Assembly: GCF_001854325.1 (NCBI RefSeq)
Contig: NZ_CP017755.1
Span: 1,922,001 to 1,986,000, forward strand
Origin: Cupriavidus malaysiensis
Lineage (GTDB): Bacteria; Pseudomonadota; Gammaproteobacteria; Burkholderiales; Burkholderiaceae
DNA: 64,000 bases
Reading direction: 5' to 3'
Shown: positions 4,240 to 62,560 of the stretch, piece after piece
How the letters are laid out: every line of letters begins with the position of its first letter
Position numbering within the stretch: position 1 is the first letter of the stretch
The notes under the pieces: model-generated
What the model saw: only the letters and a program-made list of their open reading frames with translations
Told to the model about the DNA's origin: nothing
Database searches by the model: none
Position numbers and translations under genes: made by a program

Positions 4240-4372
4240 GCGCCGCCTCAGCGCCACCTGACGCCACCTGAGCCCGGCCAGGGCTGCCTCGCAGATAACA
4301 GGACACCAGGCCTCCGCCTCCTGGCACATCCAGGAACACCAGAGAAGCCGGCCAACACAACGGAGACACACC

Positions 4373-5971: not shown

Positions 5972-5983
5972 GCCGGGGCCGCC

Positions 5984-6919: not shown

Positions 6920-6933
6920 GCCGGAGCCCGACC

Positions 6934-7890
6934 ATGACCCCATCCCTGCCCGCCGCGCCGGTGGACGGCGCGACGGACGCCGCCCTGAACGGCGCCCCGA
7001 ACGGCGCCCCGAACGGCGCCCATCACGGCGCCGACCTGCCCGATGACACCCCGTTCCAGCTGCCCCGCTGGTACTGGGTGCGCAAGCACCCGACCCTGCT
7101 GATCGGCGCGCTGCTGCTGCTTGCCGTGGCCGCGCTCGCGCTGGCCGCGCCCTGGCTCGCGCCCTTCGACCCGCAGGACATCGATCCCCTGGCGCGCATG
7201 CAGCCCCCATCCGCCGTGCACTGGTTCGGCACCGACGCGCTCGGCCGCGATGTCTTCAGCCGCGCCGTCTGGGGCGGCCGCGTCTCGCTGACGGTGGCCC
7301 TCGCGGTGGGCCTGCTGGCCACCGTGCTCGGCGTGGCGCTCGGCCTCACCGCCGGCTTCGTGCGCTGGACCGATGCCTTCCTGATGCGCGTGATGGACGG
7401 CCTGATGGCCATCCCCGGCGTGCTGCTGGCGATCGCCCTGATGGCGCTGACCCAGGCCAGCCTGGGCGCCGTCATCGTCGCCATCACGGTGCCCGAGGTG
7501 CCGCGCGTGGTGCGGCTGGTGCGTTCGCTGGCGCTGACGCTGCGCGAGCAGCTCTACGTCGAGGCCGCGCACGCGCTCGGCACGCGCCTGCCGGTGATCC
7601 TGCTGCGCCATGTGCTGCCCAATATGGTGGCGCCCCTGGTGGTGCAGGCCACCTTCATCGCCGCCGCCGCGGTGCTGACCGAGGCGGCCCTGTCCTTCCT
7701 CGGCGTGGGCGTGCCGCCGCAGACGCCGAGCTGGGGCAATATGATGGCCGAAGGCCGCAACTTCGTCGCCGTGGCCTTCCACATCCTGCTCTATCCCGGC
7801 CTGCTGCTCGCCACCACCGTGCTGGCCATCAACCTGCTCGGCGACGGCCTGCGCGACGCCCTCGATCCGCGCCTGGCGCGCCAACTCTGA
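6934..7890 (+). CDS. Oligopeptide ABC transporter permease (DppC type)
   Basis: A 318-residue permease with the DppC/OppC N-terminal domain, the [13 protein letters not shown] motif and a later EAA loop ([12 protein letters not shown]). The extreme N-terminus is an Asn-Gly-Ala-Pro-rich tail encoded by a 12-bp tandem repeat (6988-7023). The tail is cytoplasmic and probably length-variable. Forms the membrane channel with the preceding permease. Confidence 0.92.
6988..7023 (+). repeat. 12-bp tandem repeat inside permease gene
   Basis: Three copies of AACGGCGCCCCG; the third ends in CCAT instead of CCCG. They encode repeated Asn-Gly-Ala-Pro in the cytoplasmic tail. The unit is a multiple of 3, so copy number changes would keep the frame. 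Confidence 0.75.
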
Positions 7891-7912
7891 ACCCTGATCC
7901 CGGGAGCCGAAC

Positions 7913-8937
<1,025 letters not shown>

Positions 8938-8941
<4 letters not shown>

Positions 8942-9933
8942 ACGCCCCCGCCCAGGCCGCCGTCCCCTTGCTGCAGGTCGAAGGCCTGCGCAAGCACTAC
9001 GCCGCGCCGCGCCGCTGGCCGGCCCCGCCGCCCGCGCCGGTACAGGCCGTCGATGGCGTCTCCTTCACGGTGGCGCGCGGCGAGACGCTGTCGCTGGTCG
9101 GCGAATCGGGCTGCGGCAAGACCACCACCGCCAAGTCCGTTCTGCGCCTGGTGGAACCCAGCGCCGGCTCGGTGCGCCTGGACGGCGAAGAACTGCTGGA
9201 GCTGTCGGCCAGCGCCATGCGCCAGCGCCGGCGCGACATGCAGATCATCTTCCAGGACCCCTACGCCTCCTTGAGCCCGCGCCTGACCGCCGGCGAGATC
9301 GTCGCCGAGCCGCTGCGCAATTTCGGCATGCGCTCGCGCGCCGAGCGCGAGGCGCGCGTGCAGTGGCTGTTCGGCAAGGTCGGGCTGCGCCCGGAAGCGG
9401 CCGCGCGCTATCCGCACGAGTTCTCCGGCGGCCAGCGCCAGCGCCTGGGCATCGCGCGCGCGCTGGCGCTGCAGCCCAGGCTGATCGTCTGCGACGAACC
9501 GGTCTCCGCGCTCGACGTGTCGGTGCAGGCCCAGGTGGTCAATCTGCTGATGGACCTGCAGCAGGAATTCGGCATCGCCTACCTGTTCGTCGCCCATGAC
9601 CTGGCCGTGGTACGCCATATCAGCCACCGCGTGGCGGTGATGTACCTGGGCCGCATCGTCGAGCTGGCCGACCGCGACACGCTGTTCGACGCGCCGCGCC
9701 ACCCCTACACCGAGATCCTGCTGTCGGCCGCGCCGGTACCCGACCCGCGCGCGCCGGTGCGCCGCATGGTGCTGCAGGGCGACCCGCCCAGCCCGGCGCG
9801 GCCGCCCTCCGGCTGCCGCTTCCATACGCGCTGCCCGCTGGCGCAGGAGGTCTGCCGCACCCAGGCGCCGGCGCTGACCCCGCGCCCGGGCGCCGGGGCC
9901 GCCGAGCACCTGGTGGCCTGCCATTTCCGCTGA
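8938..9933 (+). CDS. Oligopeptide ABC transporter ATPase (DppF type)
   Basis: A 331-residue ABC ATPase. Walker A is [10 protein letters not shown], the signature is [10 protein letters not shown] and Walker B is [12 protein letters not shown]. The DppF-type C-terminal Cys motif is [14 protein letters not shown]. Pairs with the preceding ATPase as the heterodimeric motor. It is the last transporter gene before the deacylase, 62 nt downstream. Confidence 0.94.
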
Positions 9934-14493: not shown

Positions 14494-16389
14494 TTACAGC
14501 CGTGTCGCCTTGGGCAGCTTGAACACCCACATCGAGCCGCCCTGCGTGACCTGCTTGGTCAGCTCGGCCATATCGCCGCCCCAAAGCGGCACCGCGCCGC
14601 CGTAGCCCGACTGCACGCCGATGTACTGGTCGCCGTCCATTTCCCAGGTGATCGGCACCGAGACCACGCCGGAGCCGGTCTGGAAACTCCACAGCTCCTT
14701 GCCGGTCTTGGCATCGAAGGCCTTCATGAAGCCGTCCGAGGTGCCGGTGAAGACCAGGCCGCCGGCAGTGGTCAGCGTGCCGGCCCACAGCGGGAACTTC
14801 TCCTTGTGCTCCCAGGCGATCTTGCCGGTCTTGGGATCGATGGCGCGCAGGATACCCACGTGGTCGTCGAACAGGCGCTTGATGCGGAAGCCCTGGCCGA
14901 GGTAGGCCGAACCCGGCTTGTAGGTCAGGTGCTCGGTCCAGTAGTCCATCGCCCAGTGGTTGGCGGGGATGTAGAACAGGCCGGTGTCAGGGCTGTAGGA
15001 CATCGGGTGCCAGTTGGTGCCGCCGAGGAAGGGCGGCGAGACGAACACGCTCTCGCCCTTGTCCTCGCCGTCCTTGGGCAGCGGCGGGCGGTTGTTCTTC
15101 TCGATCGGCTTGCCGGTCTTGAGGTCGAAGCCCGAGGCCCAGGTGATGCCGTCGACGAAGGGCCAGGCCCCGATCAGCGAGGTCGGCTTGTTGGGATAGC
15201 CGGCGCCGGTGGCGAGCTTCTCGCGGTCGGTGACGAAGAAGAAGCCGTTGCGGTCGGCGTGCGCCGAGGCCTTGATCTGCTTGCCGGTCTTGGCGTCCTT
15301 GTACTCGAACAGGATCACCGAGTTATTGCCCGAGAAGTCCCAGGCATCGTTGGGCGTGTGCTGGTAGAAACCCTTCAGTTCGCCGGTGCTGGCATCGACG
15401 TAGGCCTGGCCGGAGGTGAACAGGCTGTCCCAGTTGCGCGGGTCGTCGCCCTTGGCGGTGCGCTTCCAGGTGTTCCACGGCGCCGGATTGCCCGCGCCGA
15501 TGACGATGGTGTTGGTATCCACGTCGAAGGAGGCGCTCTGCCAAGGCGCGCCGCCACCGTGGTTCCAGGCCTCGACCTTGCCGGTGGGCGATTCGGGGTC
15601 GGCCGGCCAGGACGGCGCCTTGGGATCGCCGGTGGGCGTGCTGTCCTTGCCGTCGAGGCGGCCCATATGGCCTTCCACCAGCGGGCGCGCCCACACCTCC
15701 TTGCCGGTATCGGGATCGCGCGCGAACAGCCAGCCGACCACGCCGAACTCGTCGCCCGAGGAACCGTGCACCAGCAATACGCGGCCGGTGCGCTTGTCCT
15801 TGACGATGGTGGGCGCGCCGGTCATGGTGTAGCCGACCTTGTGGTCGCCGAACTTCTCCTTCCAAACCACCTTGCCGGTCTTGCGGTCGAGCGCCACCAC
15901 GGCGGCGTCGAGCGTGCCGAAGTAGACCTTGTCGCCGTAGATGGCGGCGCCGCGGTTGACCACGTCGCAGCAGGGACGGATATCGTTGGGCAGGCGGTGC
16001 TCGTAGGCCCACAACTGCTTGCCGGTACGCGCGTCGATGGCATAGAAGCGCGAGTACGAAGCGGTGATGTAGATCACGCCGTCGCGCACCAGCGCCTGGC
16101 CCTCCTGCCCACGCTGCTTCTCGCCGCCGAAGGAGAACGACCAGGCCGGCACCAGCTGGCTCACGGTCTTGGCGTTGACCTGCTTGAGCGGGCTGTAGCG
16201 CTGCGCCTTCACGCCCAGGCCATAGGTCAGCACGTCGCCGGGGGTCTTGTCGTCGTTGAGGATGTCTTCCCAGGTCACGTCGCCGGCGGCGGCTTCGGCG
16301 GCGCCGACCATGGCGCCGAAGGACAGCGCGGCGGCCGTCAGCACGACCAGGCTCTTGAGCGCGGGCAGCGCGGATTGTTGTGGCTTCAT
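14494..16389 (-). CDS. exaA: PQQ-dependent alcohol dehydrogenase, ExaA type
   Basis: A 631-residue periplasmic quinoprotein with a signal peptide ending near AEAAA and eight tryptophan-docking (DAxTGK.LW) propeller repeats. The adjacent cysteines of the PQQ ring site are Cys140-Cys141 (RPCC). The catalytic aspartate Asp351 lies in AWDFSG. The residue two positions later is Ser353, not the Asp of lanthanide-dependent enzymes, so this is predicted to be a calcium enzyme. It oxidises primary alcohols to aldehydes and passes electrons to cytochrome c. ATG 16389 (GGGAG 11 nt upstream) is preferred over ATG 16410. No fused cytochrome domain is present. A consensus sigma-54 promoter lies upstream. 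Confidence 0.93.
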
Positions 16390-48435: not shown

Positions 48436-49184
48436 ATCGAGAGTGCCGCTGGTAGCTGGCCGAAACCTTGCACGACTCGCGCCAACTGAAGATTCGTTCC
48501 AGATCTCGGCCGCCCGGGACTCAGGTCGCTTCGACCGTGACCTCACGCAATGGCACCTTGAGCGACCGGCCATCTTCCAATCGAATAATGGCCTCAGGCG
48601 CTGCCTTCCTGCTGCCCGGCGCGATCATCCAGCACCCTTGGACGGGGTCCCTACCCCGACTCACTAGCGCGAGCCGGCACTGCGGGCCTCTTTGCTTGCA
48701 TTCAGGCGTCCGCATGTCCGCATGCCTTGGGCAAGCCGCACCTCCTCTGCGCCGTACCTTGTGACCAAGATGATCTCGGTGTCATCGTCGGTGATATCAC
48801 TCAGCATCGAGGGCGGGCTTCGGCTGCCGCTTCCGCTGCCGCCGGCATGCCGGCGGGCCAGGCGAGATGGCGTGGCGCCGGGGAGCGCGGGAAGGCGCGG
48901 AGGTGGCCTATCCTTTCTGACAGGAATACCAATGATAATGGTCCGTATTAGTAACAAAAGCCGGAAACTTTTACCATGAAGACGACCGCGTGGCGGTGCC
49001 GCGCGCGCTTCGCGTGCTGCAATGCGGTGTGATTGCCAGCGCGGGATATGCTAAAAAGGCGGGCCGTGCGCGATGCGCGGGCGAGTACGACGGGACTCTC
49101 GCGTCCGGCACGGCCGGTATGGACTGGCGGATGCGGACGCCGACGCCCCGGGCAACAGGAGTTATGCATGTCGAGGAAGCGGAA
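48436..49184. other. Gap without supported gene
   Basis: About 750 bases before the second AcoR-type gene. Two overlapping minus-strand ORFs (48521-48715 and 48664-48957) have some protein-like content (IIRLEDGRSLKVPL; MLSDITDDDTEIILVTRYGAEEVRL) but are in different frames and have no ribosome binding sites. They may be a decayed gene. Confidence 0.35.
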
Positions 49185-51209
49185 ATGACCCAGTCCTATG
49201 CACTGCAACACGCGCGGCGCGTCTCATCCGTGGTCGACCAGGCGTCATTCAACGAGGCTGCAGCGCAGGCGCGCCTGTTCCGCTCCTGGACCCGCTCGCT
49301 CAATACCTTCCGGCTGGACCCGGGCAATACGTCCGGCCCGCGCGTCATCAGCGCTGCGGAGCTGAAGGACAGGCGCAGCAGTGCCGAGGCCCTGCTGCGC
49401 TTCTCGAACCCGGTGGTGGAGCGGTTGCACGGCATTGTCGGCAAAGCGGGCTATTGCGTCCTGGTGGCCGACGCCGATGGCGCCCTGATCGATTTCCGTG
49501 GCCAGGAAGACCGCCGCAGGGAATACCGGCAGCATGGGCTGTATCACGGCCGCTATTTCACCGAGGACTCCGAAGGAACCAGCGGGGTGGCCTGCGTCCT
49601 GGCCGACAAGGAACCCATTACCGTCCACACCGAGGATCACTTCAGGGCCGCATTCACCTGCCTGACCTGTACCGCCGCGCCCATTATTTCGCCATCCGGC
49701 GAATTGACCGGCGTACTGGACGTATCGGCCGTGCGAAACAGCGAGAATCGCGACTCGCAGGAATTGATCTACGCCTGGGTATGCCAGGCGGCGGAGATGA
49801 TCGAGAACGCCTGCCTGCTGCACGATACCAGCCATCTGTGGACGCTGTACCTGCACCGCAGCCAGGACTACCTGAGCCTGCACCCCGAATTGCTGATTGC
49901 ATTCGACGATGCCGGAAACATCGTAGCGATGAACCGGCAGACAAAGAGCATGCTGAGCGCGCTATACACCGCGATACCGGCGAACGTCCAGCATCTGTTC
50001 GACCTGAATGCCGGACAGGTCATCGACCTGAACAATGGCATGGAGATGTTCCCGTTGCGGCTGACCCGCGGCGCAGGACGCTTCTTTGCAAGCCTGCGCC
50101 CGCCCCGCCAGGCCCTGCGCACGATTTCGCTGTCGCCGGAACACCCGGCCGCCGGGCACGCTCCCCGTGCTCTTGCCAGCGATCATCTGGTCATCGGCGA
50201 CCCGCAATTCTCGTCGCATCTCGCCCGCGCGCTCAAGATCGTCGACCGGCGCATTCCCATGCTGCTGCAAGGCGAGACGGGAACAGGCAAGGAGGCGTTC
50301 GCGCTCGCCGTCCATCGCGGTTCGCTGCGTGCGTCGCAGGCATTTGTCGCCGTGAACTGCGCGGCGATCCCGGATACGCTGATCGAAAGCGAGCTGTTCG
50401 GTTACGCGGAAGGGGCATTCACCGGCGCCAAGCGCAAGGGGCTCAAAGGGAAGATACTCCAGGCGCACGGCGGCACCTTGTTCCTCGATGAGATCGGCGA
50501 CATGGCTTTGCCGCTGCAGACCAGGCTGCTTCGCGTCCTGGCGGAGAGCGAGCTGGTACCGCTGGGCTCCGAGCAATCGGTGCGGGTCGACATCAACCTG
50601 ATCTGCGCGACCCACAGGGACCTTGCGCGCATGGTCTCCGACGGTACCTTCCGGGAAGATCTCTACTATCGCCTGACCGGCGCGGTGTTCCGGCTGCCTC
50701 CCCTGCGCGATCGCTCCGACCTCGACGAGCTCGTCGATTTCTTCCTCGCGGAAGAAACCGAAGCGCACGGCAGCCGCCCGGCGCTGTCCGCCGAAGCGCT
50801 GGCATGCATCCGCCGCTATCGCTGGCCCGGCAACGTACGGCAGCTGCGCATGGCGTTGCGGTACGCATGCGCGCTGGCTGCGGCCCCCGGCGTCATTGCC
50901 GCCGAACATCTTCCCGATTATCTGCGCTGCGCCGCGGATGGCGCCATGGCGGCACCGCAGCCGGTTAGCCCGCCAGTCGCGCCACAGGCGTTCGACAGTG
51001 CCGGCCTGCGCCCCGGCGAGCATCTCGAACGGGAGCACATCGTGCAGATGCTCGCCTGCCATCACTGGCGCGTCAAGGAAACCGCCAAGGCCCTGGGCAT
51101 GAGCCGCGCCACCATCTACCGCAAGATGGCCCGATACAAGATCGTCTATCCGGGTTCGGCATCCTTGCCGGGGTCCGCGCCCTCGTCTCAGGCGGACGAG
51201 GCGGACTGA
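49185..51209 (+). CDS. AcoR-type sigma-54 activator, butanediol/acetoin locus
   Basis: A 674-residue enhancer-binding protein. A GAF-type sensor region (~70-210) precedes the AAA+ domain (~320-550), with Walker [17 protein letters not shown] and [12 protein letters not shown] Fis-type helix-turn-helix ends it (VKETAKALGMSRATIYRKMARY). ATG 49185 has GAGGAAG upstream; ATG 49164 is in frame with a very close AGGAG. It precedes the butanediol dehydrogenase, whose candidate sigma-54 promoter at 51410 is its likely target. Confidence 0.88.
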   Translation: MTQSYALQHARRVSSVVDQASFNEAAAQARLFRSWTRSLNTFRLDPGNTSGPRVISAAELKDRRSSAEALLRFSNPVVERLHGIVGKAGYCVLVADADGALIDFRGQEDRRREYRQHGLYHGRYFTEDSEGTSGVACVLADKEPITVHTEDHFRAAFTCLTCTAAPIISPSGELTGVLDVSAVRNSENRDSQELIYAWVCQAAEMIENACLLHDTSHLWTLYLHRSQDYLSLHPELLIAFDDAGNIVAMNRQTKSMLSALYTAIPANVQHLFDLNAGQVIDLNNGMEMFPLRLTRGAGRFFASLRPPRQALRTISLSPEHPAAGHAPRALASDHLVIGDPQFSSHLARALKIVDRRIPMLLQGETGTGKEAFALAVHRGSLRASQAFVAVNCAAIPDTLIESELFGYAEGAFTGAKRKGLKGKILQAHGGTLFLDEIGDMALPLQTRLLRVLAESELVPLGSEQSVRVDINLICATHRDLARMVSDGTFREDLYYRLTGAVFRLPPLRDRSDLDELVDFFLAEETEAHGSRPALSAEALACIRRYRWPGNVRQLRMALRYACALAAAPGVIAAEHLPDYLRCAADGAMAAPQPVSPPVAPQAFDSAGLRPGEHLEREHIVQMLACHHWRVKETAKALGMSRATIYRKMARYKIVYPGSASLPGSAPSSQADEAD

Positions 51210-51304: not shown

Positions 51305-51409
51305 AACGCGCGCGGCCAGCGGTTCACCACGCCGGCGCCTGACGCAGCGCCACACTGCACCGCAGCATACCCAGCGTCTGCGTCGCCCGCCCTCGTGCGC
51401 TGTGCTCAC

Positions 51410-51424
51410 TGGCATGGTTCATGC
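51410..51424 (+). promoter_or_regulatory. Candidate sigma-54 promoter of butanediol dehydrogenase
   Basis: TGGCAT-GGTTC-ATGC has the correct spacing and conserved GG and GC, with one mismatch in each half of the consensus. It is about 98 nt before the GTG start. Confidence 0.5.
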
Positions 51425-51521
51425 GATTTCCCTGCTGCACGAAGGCCATGCCAGGCATGAACCAGCGCCCCCCGCATGGCCTGCGTCGTCCCCCCCCCAC
51501 AATTACGATGGAGACACAACC

Positions 51522-52637
51522 GTGAGCAACGAAGATTCGGTGCATCAGTCCAGCATGAAGGCCGCCGTATGGCGGGGCCGCCACGATGTGCGCGTCGAGG
51601 AAGTGCGCGTTCCGGACAAGCCCGCCGAGGGATGGGTAAAGATCCGCGTGCATTGGTGCGGCATCTGCGGGTCGGACTTGCATGAGTATGTCGCGGGGCC
51701 GGTCTTTATCCCGGTCGATCATCCCCACCCGCTCACCGGCCTGAAGGGGCAATGCATACTCGGTCACGAGTTCAGCGGCGAAATCGCTGAGCTGGGTGCA
51801 GGCGTCACCGGTTTCCAGGTCGGCGAACGCGTCACCGCGGACGCCTGCCAGCATTGCGGGAAATGCTATTACTGCACCCATGGCCTGTACAACATCTGCG
51901 AGAACCTCGCGTTCACCGGCCTGATGAACAATGGCGCATTCGCGGAATACGTCAACGTGCCGGCGGAGCTGCTCTACAAGCTGCCGGAGAACTTCCCGAC
52001 CGAGGCAGGCGCGTTGATCGAGCCGCTGGCGGTAGGGCTTCATGCCGTGAAGAAAGCCGGCAACATCGTCGGCCAGACGGTGGTGGTGGTCGGCGCCGGC
52101 ACCATCGGCCTGTGCACGATCATGTGCGCGAAGGCGGCCGGCGCAGGACGCATCATCGCGCTCGAAATGTCGTCGGCGCGCAAGAAGAAGGCGCTCGAAG
52201 TCGGTGCCAACGTCGTCATCGATCCCAAGGAGTGCGATGCGATCGCGGAGGTCAAGGCGCTGACCGGCGGCTATGGCGCGGACGTGTCCTTCGAGTGCAT
52301 CGGCAACAAGGCCACGGCGAAGCTTGCCATCGACGTGATCCGCAAAGCCGGCAAATGCGTGATGGTGGGGATTTTCGAAGAACCCAGCGCGTTCAATTTC
52401 TTCGAGATCGTATCGACGGAGAAGGAAATCATCGGATCGCTCGCCTATAACGGCGAATTCGCCGACGTGATCCGCTTTATCGCCGATGGCCGCATCGACG
52501 TGCAGCCGCTCATCACAGGGCGGATCTCCCTCGCCGACATTGTGTCGCACGGCTTCGAAGAGCTCGTCAACAACAAGGACGGCAACGTCAAGATCATCGT
52601 CCAGCCGATTGCCAGCCGGTCGGCTTTGACAGCCTGA
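51522..52637 (+). CDS. 2,3-butanediol dehydrogenase (zinc ADH family)
   Basis: A 371-residue medium-chain dehydrogenase interconverting 2,3-butanediol and acetoin with NAD. Catalytic zinc ligands lie in WCGICGSDLHE and GHEFSGE; the structural zinc cysteines are in ACQHCGKCYYCTHGLYNIC. The nucleotide fold is VVGAGTIG. The HPHPLTGLKG segment is typical of butanediol dehydrogenases. GTG 51522 has GGAG upstream; ATG 51555 would drop 11 residues. It supplies acetoin to the E1/E2 genes downstream. Confidence 0.92.
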   Translation: MSNEDSVHQSSMKAAVWRGRHDVRVEEVRVPDKPAEGWVKIRVHWCGICGSDLHEYVAGPVFIPVDHPHPLTGLKGQCILGHEFSGEIAELGAGVTGFQVGERVTADACQHCGKCYYCTHGLYNICENLAFTGLMNNGAFAEYVNVPAELLYKLPENFPTEAGALIEPLAVGLHAVKKAGNIVGQTVVVVGAGTIGLCTIMCAKAAGAGRIIALEMSSARKKKALEVGANVVIDPKECDAIAEVKALTGGYGADVSFECIGNKATAKLAIDVIRKAGKCVMVGIFEEPSAFNFFEIVSTEKEIIGSLAYNGEFADVIRFIADGRIDVQPLITGRISLADIVSHGFEELVNNKDGNVKIIVQPIASRSALTA

Positions 52638-52677: not shown

Positions 52678-52783
52678 GCCCCCTCCCCATCCCACCGGTA
52701 TGCGAGCCTGCGCGATGCACCATCGGGCATCGGGCATCGGGCAGCGCGCGCGCCTCGCGTGCCGGGCTTTCATCGTACTGGAC

Positions 52784-53941
52784 ATGCCGGTCATGGAACC
52801 CCTCAGCCCCAATATCGAAGCTCAAGACACACCAGCGCTCGCGCCTGCCGGATTCGCGCTGCGGCCATTGGCATTCTCCGTGGCCGTATTCCTGATCGTG
52901 CACGGCGTCAGCCTTGGCGTATGGCGCCTGTTCGCGGACCCCAGGCAGGCCGTCTGGCAGTATGCTCCCCAGCCGTTCGGCATGTACCTCTTCTGGGGCA
53001 TCCTGGTGCTCGTTTTCATCGGTTTCAACTTCGGCATGGCCGGATTCTCGGCGTTGAGGCAGCCCCTCCGGGGCTGCCTCGCCACCATCGTGACGCTGGC
53101 GCTGTCCTTCGCCCTCCCCGCCGTACTCGTCTACGGCTACGGCGAACTCGATCCGGCATTCGGCGCCATCAACGGCGCCGGCTATGGCGCGGCCGGCCTG
53201 ATCGTGCTGATCGGCTTCTACGGCTTCGGCATACTGGCGACGGGCATGGCCGGATGGCCGTGGTCCGGCAGCGGCCTGAGCCCCGCGGCCAGCGGCCTTG
53301 CGCAACTCGCCGCCGGCGCCTGCCTCACCGGCCTGGGCTATTTCCTGCTGATCTACCCCGGCATATCGACCGCCACCACGCCGCATGCGATCCTGCTGCC
53401 GCTGCCGGTAGCGATCGGCTGGTTCTATTCGGTCATTGTGGCGTGGCTGGCGACGTTCCTGATCTTCGACAACTGGCCGTGGAGCCGGCTGAGCCGTAAA
53501 AGCCATATGGCACTTGCCGCGCTGGGCGGCAACATCCTGCTGGGCACGGCGCTCTATGCCGTGCATCTGGCCTTGCTCAGATGGGTGCTCATCCCGCCCG
53601 GCGCCGTCGAGAAGATCGGCGCGATGCTCCCAAGCTGGCCTGCGCAGCTGGGCGTATGGATCGCCTTCTGGCTGATCTTCTGGGCCAACGTCGCCGGCAA
53701 CTGGCCCAACCGGTTCGGCGCCGGCACCAACCGGGCGATACGCGCCGCATCGTGCTGGGGACTTGGGCTGATCTCCTTCCTCGCCTATACGCGATGGTTC
53801 GCCGGCGCGGTGCTCCATGAAGCGGAGATCGTCCCCGGCTTTGGCGGCGATCCGCTTACCTGGGTCGATCTACTCAACTACGTCATGCTGATCTACGCGG
53901 TCTATTTCGAGTTCTACGGGCTCTCGAAAAAGACGGGCTGA
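52784..53941 (+). CDS. Polytopic membrane protein, unknown function
   Basis: A protein of about 385 residues with roughly ten hydrophobic segments of membrane-spanning length and a Trp-rich periplasmic/cytoplasmic loop set (FDNWPWSRLSRKSH, ANVAGNWPNRFG). I do not recognise the family and see no ATPase, sugar-transport or ion-channel motif. ATG 52784 or 52793 could be the start. Its place between butanediol dehydrogenase and the E1 alpha gene suggests a transport or sensing role for butanediol or acetoin. Confidence 0.72.
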   Translation: MPVMEPLSPNIEAQDTPALAPAGFALRPLAFSVAVFLIVHGVSLGVWRLFADPRQAVWQYAPQPFGMYLFWGILVLVFIGFNFGMAGFSALRQPLRGCLATIVTLALSFALPAVLVYGYGELDPAFGAINGAGYGAAGLIVLIGFYGFGILATGMAGWPWSGSGLSPAASGLAQLAAGACLTGLGYFLLIYPGISTATTPHAILLPLPVAIGWFYSVIVAWLATFLIFDNWPWSRLSRKSHMALAALGGNILLGTALYAVHLALLRWVLIPPGAVEKIGAMLPSWPAQLGVWIAFWLIFWANVAGNWPNRFGAGTNRAIRAASCWGLGLISFLAYTRWFAGAVLHEAEIVPGFGGDPLTWVDLLNYVMLIYAVYFEFYGLSKKTG

Positions 53942-54169: not shown

Positions 54170-54184
54170 TGGCACCACTCTTGC
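54170..54184 (+). promoter_or_regulatory. Sigma-54 promoter of acetoin dehydrogenase operon
   Basis: TGGCAC-CACTC-TTGC, an exact -24/-12 match 60 nt before the E1 alpha start codon. Confidence 0.9.
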
Positions 54185-54244: not shown

Positions 54245-55255
54245 ATGGAACCCACCCCAAGCCATCTTCTGTGGATGTACGAGAAGATGATCGAGATCCG
54301 GCAATACGAAGAGACCATGGCCAAGGTCTACCTGGAAGGCAAGCTGCCGCCGAGGATCCAGAAAGGCCTGGCCTTCGATATCGGCGCCGGCCCGGTGCCG
54401 GGAGAGATGCATCTCTCGGCCGGGCAAGAGCCGGTGGCCGTGGGCGTATGCGCGCACTTGCGCCCGGAAGATACCGTGGTCGGCGCGCACCGCTCGCACC
54501 ACTTCGCCATTGCCAAAGGCGTGCCGCTCGATGCCATGACCGCCGAGATGTTCGGCAAGGCCACCGGGCTCGGACGCGGCAAGGGCGGCCACATGCACCT
54601 GTTCCATCCCGAGACCAAGTTTTCCTGCAGCGGCATCGTCGGCGCGAGCTCCCCGCAGGCTTGTGGCGCCGCGCTGGCGGCGCGCAAGCTGGGCAAGGAC
54701 TGGGTGGCCGTGTCCTTCTTTGGCGAAGGCGCGGCCAACCAGGGCTCGTTCCATGAGTCGCTCAATCTGGCCGCGCTGTGGAAGCTGCCGGTGGTGTTCG
54801 TCTGCGAGGACAACAAGTACGGCATCTCGGTGGAGAAATCCGCCTCCACCTCGGTGCCTTCCAACGACGTGCGCGCCGCCGGCTATGGCATGCCTGGCGT
54901 GCTGGTGGAGCGCAACGACGCCGTCGCGGTGTACCGCGCCGCCGGCGAGGCCGTGGCACGGGCGCGCCGCGGCGAAGGCCCCACCCTGATCGAAGTCAAG
55001 ACCGACCGCTATCTCGGCCACTTCCAGGGCGACCCGGAAACTTACCGCCCGCGCGACGAAGCCAAGACCCTGCGCAGCGCCGACCCGATCCACGCCCTGG
55101 GCACTTCGCTGCGCGCCAGCGGCCTGCTCGACGACGCCGCCGAAGCCGCCTTGCGCCAGAGCGTCTCGGACCGCATCGAGGCCGCCTATGCGTTCGGCCG
55201 CAACAGCCCCTACCCCGCGCCCGCAGAAGCGCTGCAACACGTCTTCGTCCAGTAA
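54245..55255 (+). CDS. acoA: Acetoin dehydrogenase E1 alpha (TPP-dependent)
   Basis: A 336-residue E1 alpha subunit. The thiamine diphosphate motif is GEGAANQGSFHESLN; GRGKGGHMHLF precedes it and a phosphorylation-loop-like YLGHFQGDPE follows. With E1 beta it cleaves acetoin to acetaldehyde and an acetyl group passed to lipoamide. Near residues 30-50 it has an extra segment (LPPRIQKGLAFDIGAGPVPG) of about 17 residues compared with the AcoA layout I know. GAGGAG precedes the ATG. Confidence 0.9.
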   Translation: MEPTPSHLLWMYEKMIEIRQYEETMAKVYLEGKLPPRIQKGLAFDIGAGPVPGEMHLSAGQEPVAVGVCAHLRPEDTVVGAHRSHHFAIAKGVPLDAMTAEMFGKATGLGRGKGGHMHLFHPETKFSCSGIVGASSPQACGAALAARKLGKDWVAVSFFGEGAANQGSFHESLNLAALWKLPVVFVCEDNKYGISVEKSASTSVPSNDVRAAGYGMPGVLVERNDAVAVYRAAGEAVARARRGEGPTLIEVKTDRYLGHFQGDPETYRPRDEAKTLRSADPIHALGTSLRASGLLDDAAEAALRQSVSDRIEAAYAFGRNSPYPAPAEALQHVFVQ

Positions 55256-55285: not shown

Positions 55286-56359
55286 ATGCAAACCGCACAG
55301 AGCGCGTCCCATGGCACGCGCACGCTCACCATGGCCCAGGCCATCGCCGAAGCCATCGGCCAGGAAATGGAGCGCGACTCGCGCGTCTTCGTGATGGGCG
55401 AGGACATCGGCAAGTACGGCGGCATCTTCAGCGCCACCACCGGCCTGCTGGACCGCTTCGGGCCGGATCGCATCATGGATACGCCGATCTCGGAGACCGC
55501 CTTCATGGGCGCGGCCATCGGCGCCGCCGCGGAAGGATTGCGCCCGATCGCGGAACTGATGTTCGTGGATTTCTTCGGCGTGTGCTTCGACCAGATCTAC
55601 AACCACCTCGCCAAGAACACCTATATGTCCGGCGGGCGCGTGGGCCTGCCGGCGGTGGTGATGACCGGCATCGGCGGCGGCTACAACGATGCCGCCCAGC
55701 ATTCGCAATGCCTGTATGCCAGCTTTGCCCACATGCCCGGCATGAAGGTGGTGGTACCGTCCAACGCGTACGACGCCAAGGGCCTGATGACTCAGGCCAT
55801 CCGCGACGACAATCCGGTCGTGTTCTGCTACCACAAGGGCATCATGGGCCTGTCGTGGATGTCCTACTTCGAAGGCAGTACCAATGCCGTGCCGGAGCAA
55901 GCCTACACCATTCCCTTCGGGCAGGCACGGGTGGCCCGCAGCGGCCGCGACGTGACCATCGTCACGCTCTCGCAGATGGTGCAGAAATCGCTGCTGGCGG
56001 CCGAGCAGCTGGCGGCCGAAGGCATCGATGCGGAGGTGATCGACCTGCGCACCATCGTCCCGCTCGACCGCGAGACGGTGCTGCGCTCGGTGGCCAAGAC
56101 CGGCCGCCTGCTGGTGGCCGACGAAGATTACCTGAGCTTCGGCCTGTCCGGCGAGATTGCCGCCGTCGTGGCGGAAAACCTCGACAGCGTGGCGCTGCGC
56201 GCGCCGGTGCGGCGCCTGGCGGTGCCAGACGTGCCCATCCCCTTCTCGCGCCCGCTCGAGCAATTCGTGATTCCTCAGGTCGACACCATAGCCGCGCAGG
56301 TCCGCGCCCTGGTGCAGGACCGCCCCCTTTCCTATCAACTGAAGCGAGAAGCAGCATGA
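55286..56359 (+). CDS. acoB: Acetoin dehydrogenase E1 beta
   Basis: A 357-residue E1 beta subunit with the signatures MGEDIGKYGGIF, DTPISETAFMGAAIGAA and VIDLRTIVPLDRETVLRSV. It supplies part of the TPP site and binds E2. It begins 30 nt after the E1 alpha stop with CAGGAG upstream. The end overlaps the lipoyl protein gene (ATGA). Confidence 0.92.
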   Translation: MQTAQSASHGTRTLTMAQAIAEAIGQEMERDSRVFVMGEDIGKYGGIFSATTGLLDRFGPDRIMDTPISETAFMGAAIGAAAEGLRPIAELMFVDFFGVCFDQIYNHLAKNTYMSGGRVGLPAVVMTGIGGGYNDAAQHSQCLYASFAHMPGMKVVVPSNAYDAKGLMTQAIRDDNPVVFCYHKGIMGLSWMSYFEGSTNAVPEQAYTIPFGQARVARSGRDVTIVTLSQMVQKSLLAAEQLAAEGIDAEVIDLRTIVPLDRETVLRSVAKTGRLLVADEDYLSFGLSGEIAAVVAENLDSVALRAPVRRLAVPDVPIPFSRPLEQFVIPQVDTIAAQVRALVQDRPLSYQLKREAA

Positions 56360-56607
56360 CCGACGTAACGATGGCCGACACCGTCTGGCAGGACGTGGAA
56401 GACGGCACCGAAGCCCTGTTGCAGGAATGGCTGGTCAAGCCCGGCGATGCGGTCAGCGCGGGCCAGCCGCTGGGCGTGGCCGAGCTGGTCAAGACTACCC
56501 ATGAAATCGTCGCGCCCGTGGACGGCATCGTCGCCGCGCTGGCAGTGGCGGCGCAGGACACGTTCGGACGCGGCGCCGTGCTCGCCCGGCTGGAGCCGAG
56601 ATCATGA
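56356..56607 (+). CDS. Free-standing lipoyl-domain protein
   Basis: An 83-residue single lipoyl/biotinyl domain. The expected lipoylation site is Lys46 in VAELVKTTHE, with the flanking IVAPVDGIV hairpin. In usual acetoin dehydrogenases this domain is the N-terminus of E2 (AcoC). Here it is a separate protein, translated with overlap from E1 beta and into the E2 catalytic gene. Confidence 0.88.
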   Translation: MTDVTMADTVWQDVEDGTEALLQEWLVKPGDAVSAGQPLGVAELVKTTHEIVAPVDGIVAALAVAAQDTFGRGAVLARLEPRS

Positions 56608-57341
56608 GCCACAGTCTCGCTTCCGTGCTGAGCGGGCCGGGCGCCGCGGCAACGGCCGACGCCGGCGACCGCCTCATGCTGCCCCTGACAGGCATGCGTG
56701 GCGCCATCGCCCGCAATATGAGCGCCGGCTGGGCCGTGCCGCGGGTGGCGCATTCGGTCGAGGTGGACGTGACCCTGCTGGAACTGGCGCGCCACACCAT
56801 GCAGAAAAACGTGGGGCCCGAGTGCAAGATCACCCTGACGGCCTTCGTGCTGCGCGCCGTGGCGCTGACCCTGCGTCAGCATCCGCGCCTGAACGCGCGT
56901 GTGCTGGAGAAGGAGATCGAGCTGATGCCGAACATCAACCTCGGCCTCGCGGTCAGCCTCGACGAGGGCCTGATGGTGCCGGTGCTGCGCGACGTGGATA
57001 CCAGGACGGTGGCGGAAATCGCGGCGGAGAGCCGCGCCCTGGCCGCCGGCGCGCGCGCCGGCACGCTGCCGGCCGGCGCCTACCAGCGCGGCACCTTCAC
57101 CGTGACCAACCTGGGCATGACCGGCATCGACAGCTTCACGCCCATCCTCAATGTGCCGCAGGCCGCCATCCTCGGCGTGACGCGCGTGGCCAAGCGGGCC
57201 GTGGTCAAGGACGACTGGATCGCGGTGGCGCCGATGATGGGCCTGCACCTCGTGTTCGACCACCGCGCGGTGGACGGCTATCCGGCCGCGCGCTTCCTGA
57301 CCGACCTCAAGACGCGGCTGGAAACCGTGGAAGGCCTGTGA
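56604..57341 (+). CDS. acoC: E2 acyltransferase catalytic domain only
   Basis: A 245-residue 2-oxo-acid dehydrogenase acyltransferase domain. The catalytic motif is His220-Asp224-Gly225 (DHRAVDG), with TFTVTNLGMTGIDSFTPILN upstream. It transfers acetyl from lipoamide to CoA. It lacks both the N-terminal lipoyl domain and a recognisable E1/E3-binding domain, so it must use the separate lipoyl protein. AcoC is normally well over 350 residues. Confidence 0.88.
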   Translation: MSHSLASVLSGPGAAATADAGDRLMLPLTGMRGAIARNMSAGWAVPRVAHSVEVDVTLLELARHTMQKNVGPECKITLTAFVLRAVALTLRQHPRLNARVLEKEIELMPNINLGLAVSLDEGLMVPVLRDVDTRTVAEIAAESRALAAGARAGTLPAGAYQRGTFTVTNLGMTGIDSFTPILNVPQAAILGVTRVAKRAVVKDDWIAVAPMMGLHLVFDHRAVDGYPAARFLTDLKTRLETVEGL

Positions 57342-58111
57342 TGCTCGCCCCCGCCTTCCTCGCCAGCGGCGCAGGCTGCACCGAAGAACAAGCCTGGAAC
57401 CGGGCCCGCCTGGCGGAGCCGGTGCTGCGCCCGGCCGTGCGCCTGTGGACCTATGCCGCGCCGGGCATCGTGCTGGGCTGCGCGCAGTCATCCATGCGCG
57501 AGCGCCTGACCGGCTGCGCCACCCCGGTCGCGCAGCGGGACTCGGGCGGCGGCGCCGTGCTGACCGGTCCTTGGATGCTGTCGGCTTCGATCGTGCTGCC
57601 CGCCGGCCACGCGCTGGTCGGCACCGGTACGGTGTCGAGCTACCGCTGGCTGGGCGTGCTGCACGCCGGGCTGCTGCGCGATCTCGGCATTGCAGCCTAC
57701 GCGGTGCCGCCGGAGGAAGTGCGGCTGGCCCCGCCGGCGGATACGCTGAAGTGGGCGTGCTTCGGTGGGCTCTCGCCCTGGGAGGTAGTGGTGGGCCAGC
57801 GCAAGATCGTCGGCCTGGCGCAGGTGCGCCGGCGTACCGGCGTGCTGCTCACCTCCGGCACGCTGATCGCAGCGCCCGATTGGCCGCTGCTATGCGCCGC
57901 GCTCGGCGGCGATCCCGCCGATGCCGACCGCCTGCGCGCCTGCACCACGTCCTGCGCCGAACAACTCGGCACGCCGTTGATGGCCACGGTGCTGGCCGAG
58001 CGGCTGCACCACATGCTGATCGACGTGCTCGGCGAGCCCGGCCACGGCCGCCCCAGGGCACGCCCGGCGCCGGCCTTCGGCCCGCCGCACGCCGTGCCCA
58101 GCCCGTGCTGA
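57341..58111 (+). CDS. Lipoate-protein ligase family protein
   Basis: A 256-residue member of the LplA/LipB/BirA fold. The lipoyl-AMP site motif is RDSGGGAV (Arg66-Val73), and the conserved Lys155 lies in GQRKIVGLAQVRR. Start and previous stop overlap by one base (TGATG). Its place beside a free lipoyl protein suggests a dedicated lipoylation enzyme for that carrier. Confidence 0.85.
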   Translation: MLAPAFLASGAGCTEEQAWNRARLAEPVLRPAVRLWTYAAPGIVLGCAQSSMRERLTGCATPVAQRDSGGGAVLTGPWMLSASIVLPAGHALVGTGTVSSYRWLGVLHAGLLRDLGIAAYAVPPEEVRLAPPADTLKWACFGGLSPWEVVVGQRKIVGLAQVRRRTGVLLTSGTLIAAPDWPLLCAALGGDPADADRLRACTTSCAEQLGTPLMATVLAERLHHMLIDVLGEPGHGRPRARPAPAFGPPHAVPSPC

Positions 58112-58898: not shown

Positions 58899-60473
58899 AT
58901 GGCAACGAAGTTCGACCTCAAAGACGACAGCGTGGTCGTCATCATCGGTTCCGGCGCGGGCGGCGGCACGCTCGCCAACGAACTGGCCCAGCGCGGCATA
59001 CGCAGCGTGATCCTCGAAGCCGGCAAGCACTTTACGCAGGCCGATTTCGAGAACGACGAGTGGGAGATGTTCAACAAGATCTCGTGGCTGGACAAGCGCA
59101 TCTCGGCCGGCGGCTGGCATCACACCAAGACCTACCCCAACCTGCCGGCCTGGATCGTCAAGGGCGTGGGCGGCTCCACGGTGCACTGGTCCGGCGTGGC
59201 GCTGCGCTTCATGCCGCACGACTTCCACAACCGCAGCACCTATGGTGCGGTGAAGGACGCCAACCTGATCGACTGGCCCATCACCTACGACGAACTCGCG
59301 CCGTTCTACGATCGCGCCGAGAAGAAGATGGGCGTGACCACCACCGCCGCCTCCGGCCTGCCGGCGCTGCCGGAAAACAACCACTACAAGGTGCTGGCGG
59401 CCGGCGCGCACAAGATCGGCTACAAGGAGATCGTGCGGCCGATGGCGGTCAACTCGCAACCCTATGACGGCCGCCCGGGCTGCATGCAGATCGGCTTCTG
59501 CATGCAGGGATGCAAGATCGGCGCCAAATGGTCCACCCTCTACACCGAGGTGCCGCGTGCCGTGGCCACCGGCAAGGCGGAATTGCGGCCGCAATCCATG
59601 GTGCTGCAGATCGAGCACGACGCCGCCGGCAAGGTCACCGGCGTGCTCTATGCCGACGAGCACGGCCGGCGCCAGTTCCAGCGCGCGCGCGTCGTCTGCG
59701 TGGCCGGCAACTCGATCGAATCGCCGCGTCTGCTGCTGAACTCGGCCAGCAGCAAGTTCCCGCAGGGGCTGGCCAATTCTTCCGGCCAGGTTGGCCGCAA
59801 CTACCTGAACCACACCACCGCGGCAGCCGTGGCGATCCATCGCAAGCCGGTCTATATGTACCGCGGCACCGCGCTGGCGGCGGTGGTCTCGGACGAAGCC
59901 CGGCTCGACACGAAGCGGGGCTTCTTCGGCGGCTATCACCTGGAAGGACTGGCGCTGGGCCTGCCCTTCACCGCCGCCTTCATGAAGCCGGGCGGCTGGG
60001 GCCGCGAAGTCTCCTCGGCACTGGAAATGTACGACCACATGAGCTGTGTCTGGGTCTGCGGCGAAGACCTGGCGCAGGAGCGCAACAGCATCACCCTGCA
60101 CGCCACCGAGAAGGACCAGTACGGCCTGCCGGTGCCGATCGTGAGCAAGACCGACCACCCCAACGATGCCGCCGTGCGCGCCCATGGGCTGGCCCAGTTC
60201 CGCAAGATGTCGGAGGCGGTCGGCGCCACCCGCGTGATCGACATGCCCCCCTACCCCGCCAGCCACAATATGGGCACCAACCGCATGAGCGCCAAGGCCA
60301 GCGACGGCGTGGTCAACCGCTGGGGCCAGAGCCACGACATCCCTAACCTGTTCGTCTCCGACGGCAGCCAGTTCGCTTCCAGTTCGGCGTCCAACCCCAC
60401 CCTGACCATCGTGGCGCTGGCGATCCGCCAGGCCGAGTACATCGCCGGCGCGCTGCAACGGCGCGAACTCTGA
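58899..60473 (+). CDS. GMC-family FAD oxidoreductase
   Basis: A 524-residue flavoprotein. FAD-binding motif GSGAGGGTLANELA; KGVGGSTVHWSG; C-terminal catalytic region SHNMGTNRMS and SSASNPTLTIVALAIRQAE. It has no signal of its own and probably leaves by the Tat signal of the preceding small subunit. No cytochrome c subunit follows, unlike three-subunit gluconate or sorbitol dehydrogenases. The context suggests oxidation of a diol or hydroxyketone in the periplasm. Both ATG 58887 and 58899 have GGAG sites. Confidence 0.87.
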   Translation: MATKFDLKDDSVVVIIGSGAGGGTLANELAQRGIRSVILEAGKHFTQADFENDEWEMFNKISWLDKRISAGGWHHTKTYPNLPAWIVKGVGGSTVHWSGVALRFMPHDFHNRSTYGAVKDANLIDWPITYDELAPFYDRAEKKMGVTTTAASGLPALPENNHYKVLAAGAHKIGYKEIVRPMAVNSQPYDGRPGCMQIGFCMQGCKIGAKWSTLYTEVPRAVATGKAELRPQSMVLQIEHDAAGKVTGVLYADEHGRRQFQRARVVCVAGNSIESPRLLLNSASSKFPQGLANSSGQVGRNYLNHTTAAAVAIHRKPVYMYRGTALAAVVSDEARLDTKRGFFGGYHLEGLALGLPFTAAFMKPGGWGREVSSALEMYDHMSCVWVCGEDLAQERNSITLHATEKDQYGLPVPIVSKTDHPNDAAVRAHGLAQFRKMSEAVGATRVIDMPPYPASHNMGTNRMSAKASDGVVNRWGQSHDIPNLFVSDGSQFASSSASNPTLTIVALAIRQAEYIAGALQRREL

Positions 60474-60485
60474 GCCGCGCCGGGT

Positions 60486-60514
60486 GGCCGCCCGCCGCAT
60501 TGCGGCAGGCGGCC
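60486..60514 (+). terminator. Hairpin after GMC oxidoreductase
   Basis: A 13-position stem with one mismatch (GGCCGCCCGCCGC at 60486-60498 against 60502-60514) and a 3-nt loop, 13 nt past the stop. No T-tract. Confidence 0.6.
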
Positions 60515-60595
60515 AAATCGATTAGCGTAGAGCCAGCGCTGGGCCGGGCATCCGATCGCCGCCAGCCCCCACATGAACCGCCCAAGGAGACAACC

Positions 60596-62560
60596 GTGCT
60601 GCAACAAGCACACCGGGCACATATCGAGCGCCTGCTCGCCTTTGCGCAGCAGCCCGGCGCGGCCGAGGGCACGATAGAGCGTTCCTGGCTGCGCTGCTTC
60701 AACGACTATGGCCTCGACCCGAGCCGGCCGGTGCCTGCGTATATCGTGGAGGCGCAGCGCCTGCGCGAACACAAGGACCAGATCGAGGATTTTCTCGGCG
60801 TGGCGCGTACCGGCATGGAGCAGCTCTACAAGCGCGTCTCCGCCCTCGACTGCGTGCTGCTGCTGACCGACGCCCATGGCGTGACCGTGGACTTCATCGG
60901 CAACGACCACCGGGACCACGAACTCAAGCGCGCCGGGCTCTACCTCGGCGCGGACTGGAGCGAGCCGCGCGCCGGCACCTGCGCGGTGGGCACCTGCATT
61001 GTCGAGCAGGCGCCGGTGACCTGCCACCAGACCGACCACTTCGACGTGTCCCATATCACGCTCACGTGCAACAGCGCGCCGCTGTTCGATCCCACCGGCG
61101 GCTTCCTGGGCGTGCTCGACGTCTCCGCGCTGAGCGCTCCGGCGCCGCGCGAAGGACAGCACCTGGCGCTGCAGATGACCACCATGTATGCGCAGATGAT
61201 CGAGGACGCCAACTTCCTGCGCTACTTCCGCGACCAATGGATCCTGCGGCTGGGCTCGACCTGGTCGCTGGTGGACGTGGACAGCGAGATCATGGTCGCC
61301 TTCGACGCCGACGGCGTCATCCGGGGCATCAACAGCGGAGGCCGGCGCAGGCTGCGGCTGGCCGACGCCGCCGAAGGACACGGCGGCAAGCCCCTGGATC
61401 TGCGCGGCCACCTGCTCACCGAAGTCTTCCGCGAAGACATGAGCGAGCTCTGGCGCATCGCCCACGCCGGCATGTCGTCCGAGCGCACCGCGGTGCGCAC
61501 CCATGACCACGGCTTGTACTACGCCACCGCCATCGCGCCGCGCGGCGCGCCGGGCCGGCCCTCGGCGCCCGGGGCCCAGCCGGCGCTGCCGAGCGCGGAG
61601 GCAAGCGCCGCGCTGGACGCGCTCGGAGCGGGCGACCCGCAGATGCAGCGGCTGATCCTGCAGGCCAAGCGGCTTGCCAACAAGCCGCTCAATATCCTGG
61701 TGCATGGCGAAACCGGCACCGGCAAGGAAGTCCTGGCCAAGGCGCTGCACGCTGCCAGCGAGCGCCGCGGCAAATCCTTCGTCGCGGTCAACTGCGCCGC
61801 CATTCCCGAATCGCTGATAGAGAGCGAGTTGTTCGGCTATTCGCCGGGCACCTTCACCGGTGCGCGCAGCAAAGGCATGCGCGGCCTGATTGCGCAATCC
61901 GACGGCGGCACGCTGTTCCTCGACGAAATCGGCGACATGCCGCTGCACCTGCAAAGCCGGCTGCTGCGCGTGCTGTCCGAACGCGAAGTGATGCCGCTGG
62001 GCGCGGAGAAACCCATCCCGGTAGACCTGCGCGTGATCGCCGCCTCGCACCGCGACCTGCGCCAGCTGATCGCCGAACAATGCTTCCGCGAAGACCTCTA
62101 CTATCGCCTGTGCGGCGCCACCTTGCACCTGCCGGCCCTGCGCGAGCGGCGCGACAAGGACTACCTGATCGCACGCATCGCCGCAGAAGAGGGCCGGCAG
62201 CTGGACATGCGGGCCGAACTGGCGCCCGCCACGCTGGCCCTGCTCCGCGCCTACACCTGGCAGGGCAATGTGCGGCAATTGCGCAATGTGCTGCGCTTCG
62301 CGCTGGCCATGAGCGACAACGGCTTCATCGACACCGACGCACTACCGCCCGAGATCCTTGAGGGCACGCAGGAAAACCCGGCAGAAGCCGCGCCGGCGGC
62401 CACGCGGCCGCTTCCCGGCAACGAACGCGAGGTCCTGCTGGCGGCATTGCGGCGGAACAAATGGCGCATTACGCAGGTTGCGGTTCAGCTGGGGATCGCG
62501 CGGGCGACGGTCTATCGGCAGATGGAGCGATATGGGATAGTTGCGCCCAATCAGCAGTGA
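60596..62560 (+). CDS. acoR: AcoR-type sigma-54 activator, acetoin operon
   Basis: A 654-residue enhancer-binding protein. The N-terminal sensor holds a GAF domain (~55-215); the AAA+ domain (~345-575) has Walker [15 protein letters not shown] and [12 protein letters not shown]. The sigma-54 loop reads GTFTGA, not GAFTGA. The C-terminal helix-turn-helix is KWRITQVAVQLGIARATVYRQMERYG. GTG 60596 has AAGGAGA upstream. Location at the end of the aco genes suggests that it binds the palindromes at 54014-54068. Confidence 0.89.
   Translation: MLQQAHRAHIERLLAFAQQPGAAEGTIERSWLRCFNDYGLDPSRPVPAYIVEAQRLREHKDQIEDFLGVARTGMEQLYKRVSALDCVLLLTDAHGVTVDFIGNDHRDHELKRAGLYLGADWSEPRAGTCAVGTCIVEQAPVTCHQTDHFDVSHITLTCNSAPLFDPTGGFLGVLDVSALSAPAPREGQHLALQMTTMYAQMIEDANFLRYFRDQWILRLGSTWSLVDVDSEIMVAFDADGVIRGINSGGRRRLRLADAAEGHGGKPLDLRGHLLTEVFREDMSELWRIAHAGMSSERTAVRTHDHGLYYATAIAPRGAPGRPSAPGAQPALPSAEASAALDALGAGDPQMQRLILQAKRLANKPLNILVHGETGTGKEVLAKALHAASERRGKSFVAVNCAAIPESLIESELFGYSPGTFTGARSKGMRGLIAQSDGGTLFLDEIGDMPLHLQSRLLRVLSEREVMPLGAEKPIPVDLRVIAASHRDLRQLIAEQCFREDLYYRLCGATLHLPALRERRDKDYLIARIAAEEGRQLDMRAELAPATLALLRAYTWQGNVRQLRNVLRFALAMSDNGFIDTDALPPEILEGTQENPAEAAPAATRPLPGNEREVLLAALRRNKWRITQVAVQLGIARATVYRQMERYGIVAPNQQ

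Follow-up and report, generated by a model that had tools for sequence, protein, structure and literature searches.

A swinging lipoyl arm and a giant core of acyltransferase (E2) are the textbook reasons for substrate channelling. Precedents for looser arrangements come from actinobacteria, with lipoyl service in trans, and from sulfur oxidisers, with a free lipoyl carrier that has its own modifying enzyme. In actinobacteria, one report describes an E2 that forms trimers, and an OdhA that relies on lipoyl groups supplied in trans (PMC10415282); in the OdhA/E2p system as reported, a different E2 bears the lipoyl domain and the trimer follows a three-residue, Phe-containing insertion (PMC10415282, PMC7568260). 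In sHdr sulfur oxidation, the free lipoyl protein LbpA is accompanied by a gene-linked modifying enzyme, sLpl, alongside housekeeping lipoylation; the reports describe an ATP-dependent ligase with an LplB domain, and a LipS1/S2 synthase (PMC6067878, PMC10332631). Here we describe an operon of the soil bacterium Cupriavidus malaysiensis, located in a stretch of 64,000 nucleotides (contig NZ_CP017755.1, positions 1,922,001 to 1,986,000; hereafter the window), in which a lipoyl carrier protein (LIP) and E2 are encoded separately, next to a lipoate-ligase-fold, ligase-like protein (LPL). On balance we read it as an alpha-hydroxyketone dehydrogenase, probably of the acetoin type, that would work without a tethered multienzyme core. 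The window belongs to a genome of 7.95 Mb in three contigs, and the nearest named relative in our locus scan was Cupriavidus basilensis (97% over LPL). The central genes, for which the coordinates of LIP, E2 and LPL given in an earlier note on this DNA were confirmed, are as follows.

54245..55255, plus strand: E1 alpha, thiamine diphosphate (ThDP)-dependent dehydrogenase, 336 aa (PF00676, 260 bits; order conserved in relatives)
55286..56359, plus strand: E1 beta, 357 aa (PF02779/PF02780; NF006667, 343 bits against a cut-off of 321)
56356..56607, plus strand: LIP, free-standing lipoyl carrier, 83 aa, acceptor Lys46 in ELVKTTHE (PF00364, Biotin_lipoyl, 44.6 bits, cut-off 22.1)
56604..57341, plus strand: E2, free-standing acyltransferase catalytic domain, 245 aa, DHRAVDG motif, short C-terminus (PF00198, 2-oxoacid_dh, 235.5 bits, cut-off 23)
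57341..58111, plus strand: LPL, single-domain lipoate-ligase/octanoyltransferase fold, 256 aa, invariant Cys140 and Lys155 (LplA-B_cat, 45.4 bits, cut-off 27)

The window system shares with the actinobacterial one an acyltransferase without a lipoyl domain of its own, service in trans and, most likely, a trimeric E2. It differs in that the carrier is free, the E2 tail is shorter than in full-length E2s and there is no C-terminal insertion. With the sHdr system it shares the free lipoyl protein and the gene-linked modifying enzyme, with housekeeping lipoylation alongside, whereas the window LPL consists of one domain and has an invariant Cys, and LipA is present in some loci. Like the H protein of glycine cleavage, LIP is a small free lipoyl carrier between enzymes; unlike it, LIP would carry an acyl group from a ThDP-dependent E1 to E2, and its score for the H-protein family PF01597 is below the cut-off (21.2 against 22.2 bits). 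The VK-type lysine context of LIP (ELVKTTHE) is one that we take to be common to the H protein, and presumably nearer to that type than to the ETDKA type of E2s.

A further comparison is offered by the canonical acoXABC genes elsewhere in the same genome (L118, G000:C2 at about 191–199 kb; G000:C2:190000-204000, 3784-9066). The two systems share E1 alpha (41% identity) and E1 beta (50%), a lipoyl domain, a similar regulator and a lipoate-ligase-fold gene downstream. In contrast, AcoC is one protein with a lipoyl domain and an alpha/beta hydrolase (NF011457, 488 bits against a cut-off of 307), and AcoX is present as well, whereas the window system has a chloramphenicol acetyltransferase (CAT)-type acyltransferase and a free lipoyl protein. 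Against the AcoC model LIP scored 32.9 bits, and for E2 no such match was listed. An earlier description of the window system was not found in the open-licence literature searched, and its combination of traits in an acyl-transferring system, together with a sister branch without E2, looks new.

Related loci were collected by a contig scan with the LPL alignment (194 stretches matched, 129 confirmed, 80 loci returned), and their gene content was assigned by tblastn of the window proteins. E2 was present in 47 of the 80 loci: 42 had the order E1alpha-E1beta-LIP-E2-LPL-small subunit-GMC, one had E1alpha-E1beta-LIP-E2-LPL, and four had E2-LPL-small subunit-GMC with a contig end falling within or just before E2. 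Another 14 loci had E1alpha-E1beta-LIP-LPL with no E2 in the fetched stretch, and 19 had LPL alone. In all 43 loci with both genes a stop codon parts LIP and E2, without a single fusion. Hence, the split is not a sequencing accident, and the division into an 83-residue carrier and a 245-residue catalytic domain, as proposed earlier for the window, is confirmed. Likewise, the 120 E2 homologues listed, of 1545 found, were all stand-alone proteins of 212–247 aa; a full-length E2 was not among these 120, with lengths to about 429 aa eligible in the search. A tree of E1 beta (51 rows, 9 loci dropped) spreads the system over several betaproteobacterial families.

A second type of split system was observed on the minus strand of another locus (L150, 5591-8544). 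It consists of a free E2 (251 aa, 38% identity), a free lipoyl protein (80 aa, TDKVN), E1 alpha, E1 beta and an SDR, and no ligase-like gene adjoins it.

By its enzymes the window system belongs with the 2-oxoacid/acetoin dehydrogenases, and its E2 has the CAT-type domain with the DHRxxDG motif that characterises conventional E2s (PF00198, 235.5 bits). Two other conventional features are absent, namely the lipoyl domain in cis, which is encoded by a separate gene, and the binding domain. A Pfam scan at E <= 10, whose output omits most matches beyond about 0.1, revealed no E1/E3-binding (PSBD) family for LIP or E2, and only PF00198 was listed for E2. LIP is a bare lipoyl domain without linker, and in E2 some 20 residues remain as an N-terminal extension, with low model confidence. 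The scan bears out the loss of the E1/E3-binding domain, from which the earlier note had drawn its doubt that a large core forms at all.

The C-terminus of E2 strengthens this doubt. In the description of one study, the C-terminal helix acts as the knob that joins E2 trimers (PMC8421416). The tail after DHRxxDx measured 19–21 residues in 119 of the 120 listed split E2s, the remaining one ending at the motif, as opposed to 22–24 residues in all 33 full-length E2s taken from the source genome and its relatives. When we scored an end as hydrophobic if L, I, V, M or F made up three or more of the last four residues, such an end occurred in none of the 120 split E2s and in 28 of the 33 full-length E2s. 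The split C-termini are thus shorter and less hydrophobic, in a test that is not absolute, as five full-length E2s fail it. A third conventional feature, the core-forming C-terminal end, is probably missing, and a free E2, most likely a trimer, served by a diffusing carrier would be the best reading.

The acceptor Lys46 is invariant in all 21 aligned LIPs (the window protein plus 20 selected among the 57 loci that carry the gene). In line with the earlier note, the window contains no gene for dihydrolipoyl dehydrogenase (E3): none of the genome's five Pyr_redox_dim matches lies inside it, though two of the 47 E2-bearing relatives do carry one. Three of the five adjoin E2 genes of other complexes, which, judged by their domains, would be the pyruvate, 2-oxoglutarate and branched-chain 2-oxoacid dehydrogenases. 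The presence of an E3 near those two loci supports reoxidation of the carrier by an ordinary E3. The idea, already put forward, that the lipoyl protein works in trans is supported as well. At one locus (L066, 4447-17463), E1, lipoyl protein, E2, LPL, lipoyl synthase and a stand-alone E3 all lie nearby.

LPL has a single catalytic domain with the lipoate ligase/octanoyltransferase fold. In the 81 sequences, from the window and the 80 loci, Cys140 is the only invariant Cys, 15 residues before the invariant Lys155; C185, 30 residues after this Lys, is present in 74 of the 81. In the LipB of the same genome, with both residues chosen by motif, the Cys follows the Lys by 34 positions, a spacing also reported for Cys169/Lys135 of Escherichia coli LipB (PMC9307952). 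A LipB type was rejected, because the sole invariant Cys of LPL precedes the Lys by 15 residues and does not follow it by 34. LipM is described as carrying its Cys on another loop than LipB (PMC7253636). LPL shares its fold family with LipM and LipL of Bacillus, and its nearest solved protein by profile is BH3822. We take BH3822 to be a LipL, and assume the position of its Cys. A lone invariant Cys before the conserved Lys presumably also occurs in these enzymes, as Cys147 of LipL and Cys150 of LipM. On the other hand, the NCBIfam LipL model NF053589 gave no match for the window LPL, and a survey of lipoate assembly, as far as its account goes, reports only LipB among the octanoyltransferases of Proteobacteria and never LipM (PMC10332631).

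The window LPL is also far below the NCBIfam ligase cut-offs (best 26.5 bits against 550). The LplA motif is given as RRxTGGG...HD (PMC3904984), whereas LPL has RxxGGGAVLxGPW (GGGAVLTGPW in the window) without HD, and no accessory domain in the Pfam scan. In 8 of the 47 E2-bearing loci a lipoyl synthase gene (lipA) lies within the locus, in six of them directly after the GMC gene in the same direction; the one checked scored 414 bits for TIGR00510 (cut-off 310). Each of these eight genomes has two lipA matches over the cut-off (the second partial in G330), and by contig coordinates the linked gene is one of the two. Three other genomes were searched, and two had one match over the cut-off and one (G332) had two. 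This favours a route in which the octanoyl group is transferred first and sulfur is then inserted on the carrier. LPL is probably a Cys/Lys octanoyl- or amido-transferase. The lipoate-ligase-like enzyme that had been noted is retained as a gene and a fold, but it is more probably an acyl transferase of the Cys type than a ligase that depends on ATP.

A different ligase-fold gene follows the genome's own acoXABC. Its Cys lies 16 residues before the Lys, and its only NCBIfam match is the LipL model, with 19.5 bits against a cut-off of 400.

LPL is patchy within the family, with matches in 12 of 299 genomes, three of them only at E about 7e-4. The 19 LPL-only loci come from 18 genomes. A LIP-like protein above 100 bits occurs in two of these genomes, and the best score in the other 16 is 45 bits. 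In 16 of the 18 there was a second match of at least 97 bits, which is probably LipB (the LipB of the source genome scores 114). The proposal that LPL is a dedicated lipoylation enzyme hence fits the operon, but it does not extend to the whole family, as 16 of the 18 genomes have no dedicated carrier. The ligase-only loci (L070, L079, L081, L086, L104 and others) hold LPL homologues of 46–52% identity and no operon, mostly in genomes with a LipB-like gene and without a dedicated lipoyl protein.

In the 14 loci without E2 (L074, L078, L080, L087, L088, L089, L093, L095, L096, L103, L106, L108, L111 and L112), the distance between the aligned reading frames of LIP and LPL ranges from -18 to 92 bases, which leaves no space for an intervening E2. 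Their genomes carry other E2s; by a rough test, no open frame below 300 aa contains an E2 domain in 11 of the 14. In the E1 beta tree, all 13 rows without E2 fall in one supported clade with 10 E2-bearing rows. L074 has a free alpha/beta hydrolase upstream, and L096 adjoins genes read as acoXABC with a lipoyl-hydrolase AcoC.

The gene content and the separation of the genes were established here, as were their conservation, the promoter, the motifs and the predicted folds; the substrate, the oligomeric state, carrier diffusion, the chemistry of the transferase and the sharing of E3 are inferred. In the mechanism that we propose, E1 with ThDP would cleave the substrate and transfer the acyl group onto lipoylated Lys46 of the free 9-kDa carrier. 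The acylated carrier would then diffuse to the stand-alone E2, most likely a trimer, much as the glycine-cleavage H protein moves, and E2 would make acyl-CoA. For reoxidation, the system is assumed to share a dihydrolipoyl dehydrogenase with the housekeeping complexes. The co-transcribed LPL, most likely a Cys/Lys octanoyl- or amido-transferase, would load the carrier together with lipoyl synthase. Upstream in the pathway, the ketone may stem from an alcohol, through the action of a Tat-exported GMC dehydrogenase pair. A bolder version, which we hold tentatively and at slightly less than even confidence, is that tethering has been wholly given up in favour of free E1, carrier and trimeric E2, that the system has its own Cys-type octanoyl/amido transferase and sometimes its own lipoyl synthase, that the minimal unit is that of the E2-less sister branch, with E1, carrier and LPL, and that LPL is a third kind of octanoyl/lipoyl transferase. 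An E2 without arm, binding domain and, probably, core-forming end would allow the worth of tethering to be measured; the giant complex of the textbooks may here work as loose parts. A linked transferase, if true, would add a route of lipoate assembly to Proteobacteria, for which the survey reports only LipB (PMC10332631).

The remaining features are the following.

54170..54184, plus strand: sigma-54 promoter TGGCAC-N5-TTGC, exact match, 60 bases to the E1 alpha start codon
58219..58818, plus strand: Gluconate_2-dh3-type small subunit with twin-arginine signal SRRGFL (PF13618, 25.5 bits; motif read in the sequence)
58899..60473, plus strand: GMC flavoprotein dehydrogenase, 524 aa (PF00732/PF05199)
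60500..62560, plus strand: sigma-54-dependent activator, probable operon regulator (46% identity to the regulator beside the genome's own acoXABC)
51402..52637, plus strand: zinc alcohol dehydrogenase adjoining the operon, probable 2,3-butanediol dehydrogenase (best solved relative 6ie0, 280 bits)
48990..51209, plus strand: second sigma-54-dependent activator, upstream (sigma-54 activator matches, those shown all under curated cut-offs)

From E1 alpha to the activator the genes lie on one strand, in the order E1 alpha, E1 beta, LIP, E2, LPL, Tat-signal Gluconate_2-dh3 subunit, GMC dehydrogenase and sigma-54 activator. From E1 beta to LPL, each of the three junctions is an overlap of stop and start codon (ATGA, ATGA and TGATG). 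We take SRRGFL in the small subunit to be a twin-arginine (Tat) signal. The bare sigma-54 pattern is not rare, as 11 sites with at most one mismatch were found in the window against 7.0 expected. The weight of the operon's site comes from its position, which is kept in relatives: a site with 0–1 mismatch within 250 bases before E1 alpha occurs in all 42 testable E2-bearing loci (5 of the 47 were untestable) and in 8 of the 14 loci without E2; among 1120 shuffled upstream sequences, 4 had it. A regulator of at least 55% identity to the operon-end activator is located 3' of the GMC gene in 32 of the 47 E2-bearing loci, and this activator is the probable regulator of the operon.

Acetoin is a plausible substrate from gene context, because of the butanediol-dehydrogenase-like neighbour, whose best solved relative (6ie0) is an (R,R)-butanediol dehydrogenase, and because the regulator is 46% identical to that of acoXABC; the sigma-54 promoter fits as well. 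An alternative explanation, to which we give appreciable weight although somewhat below even, is that acoXABC handles acetoin and that the window system uses another alpha-hydroxyketone or a 2-oxoacid formed by periplasmic GMC or pyrroloquinoline quinone (PQQ) alcohol dehydrogenases. The canonical acoXABC is present, with an AcoC well above its model cut-off, and the GMC pair is conserved, the best solved relatives of the GMC protein being the fructose dehydrogenase large subunit and FAD glucose dehydrogenase. Of the 80 loci, 23 hold PQQ alcohol dehydrogenase-like matches, with identity as low as about 30% for some; a weak match is present in the window too. Both the neighbour and the regulator argue the other way, but the neighbour is loosely linked, because a relative of it occurs in only 2 of the 47 E2-bearing loci, which counts against acetoin.

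Several other observations weigh against our reading of free parts. The five full-length E2s that fail the hydrophobic-end test score no better than 31 of the 120 split E2s, at two of four; the tails differ by only 1–5 residues; they are longer in two of the 47 loci (22 residues in L101 and 24 in L115), with the hydrophobic end absent in both; and the predicted E2 model (pLDDT 79) is uninformative on oligomers. Possibly, the parts assemble into a conventional complex via new non-covalent contacts, for instance if E1 is bound by LIP or by the N-terminus of E2. The tight overlap of the genes and their fixed order suggest co-production, the low-confidence N-terminal extension of E2 is retained, and the C-terminal tests leave room for a core. 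Yet neither LIP nor E2 has an E1/E3-binding family, the E2 end is short and less hydrophobic and LIP lacks a linker, so that we consider such a complex quite unlikely. The assumed sharing of E3 is weakened by the own E3 near L066 and L083. For LPL, there are weak profile matches to the LplAB and LplA ligases (26.5 and 23.6 bits), homologues without a dedicated carrier in 16 of the 18 LPL-only genomes, and two lipA genes in G332, which has none in the fetched locus. An ATP-dependent ligase salvaging free lipoate for the carrier, like the enzymes of the sulfur oxidisers, would agree with the fold, with these profile matches and with the precedent of sHdr, where a free lipoyl protein is reported to have a specific ligase next to it (PMC6067878). 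It seems unlikely in view of the missing accessory domain, the replacement of HD of the LplA motif (PMC3904984), the invariant Cys140 and the eight loci with lipA. Finally, the split might reflect decay, the acyltransferase and carrier being dispensable remnants and a housekeeping E2 serving the operon. The 14 loci with E1, carrier and LPL but no E2 match in the fetched stretch point in this direction, but the catalytic motif DHRxxD is kept in all 120 listed of the 1545 E2 homologues, the position of E2 is preserved in 43 loci and none of the 21 aligned carriers lacks the Lys, which makes decay very improbable.

Two minor observations concern other parts of the window. A 413-aa membrane-like protein (window 52700-53941), between the butanediol-dehydrogenase-like gene and E1 alpha, had no Pfam match at E 0.001 and no tblastn match in the 80 related loci. 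On the minus strand, at window 14515-16224, lies a PQQ alcohol dehydrogenase-like reading, with 32% identity to the linked gene of relatives, and two exact sigma-54 promoter matches (16513 and 16801) are found near it.

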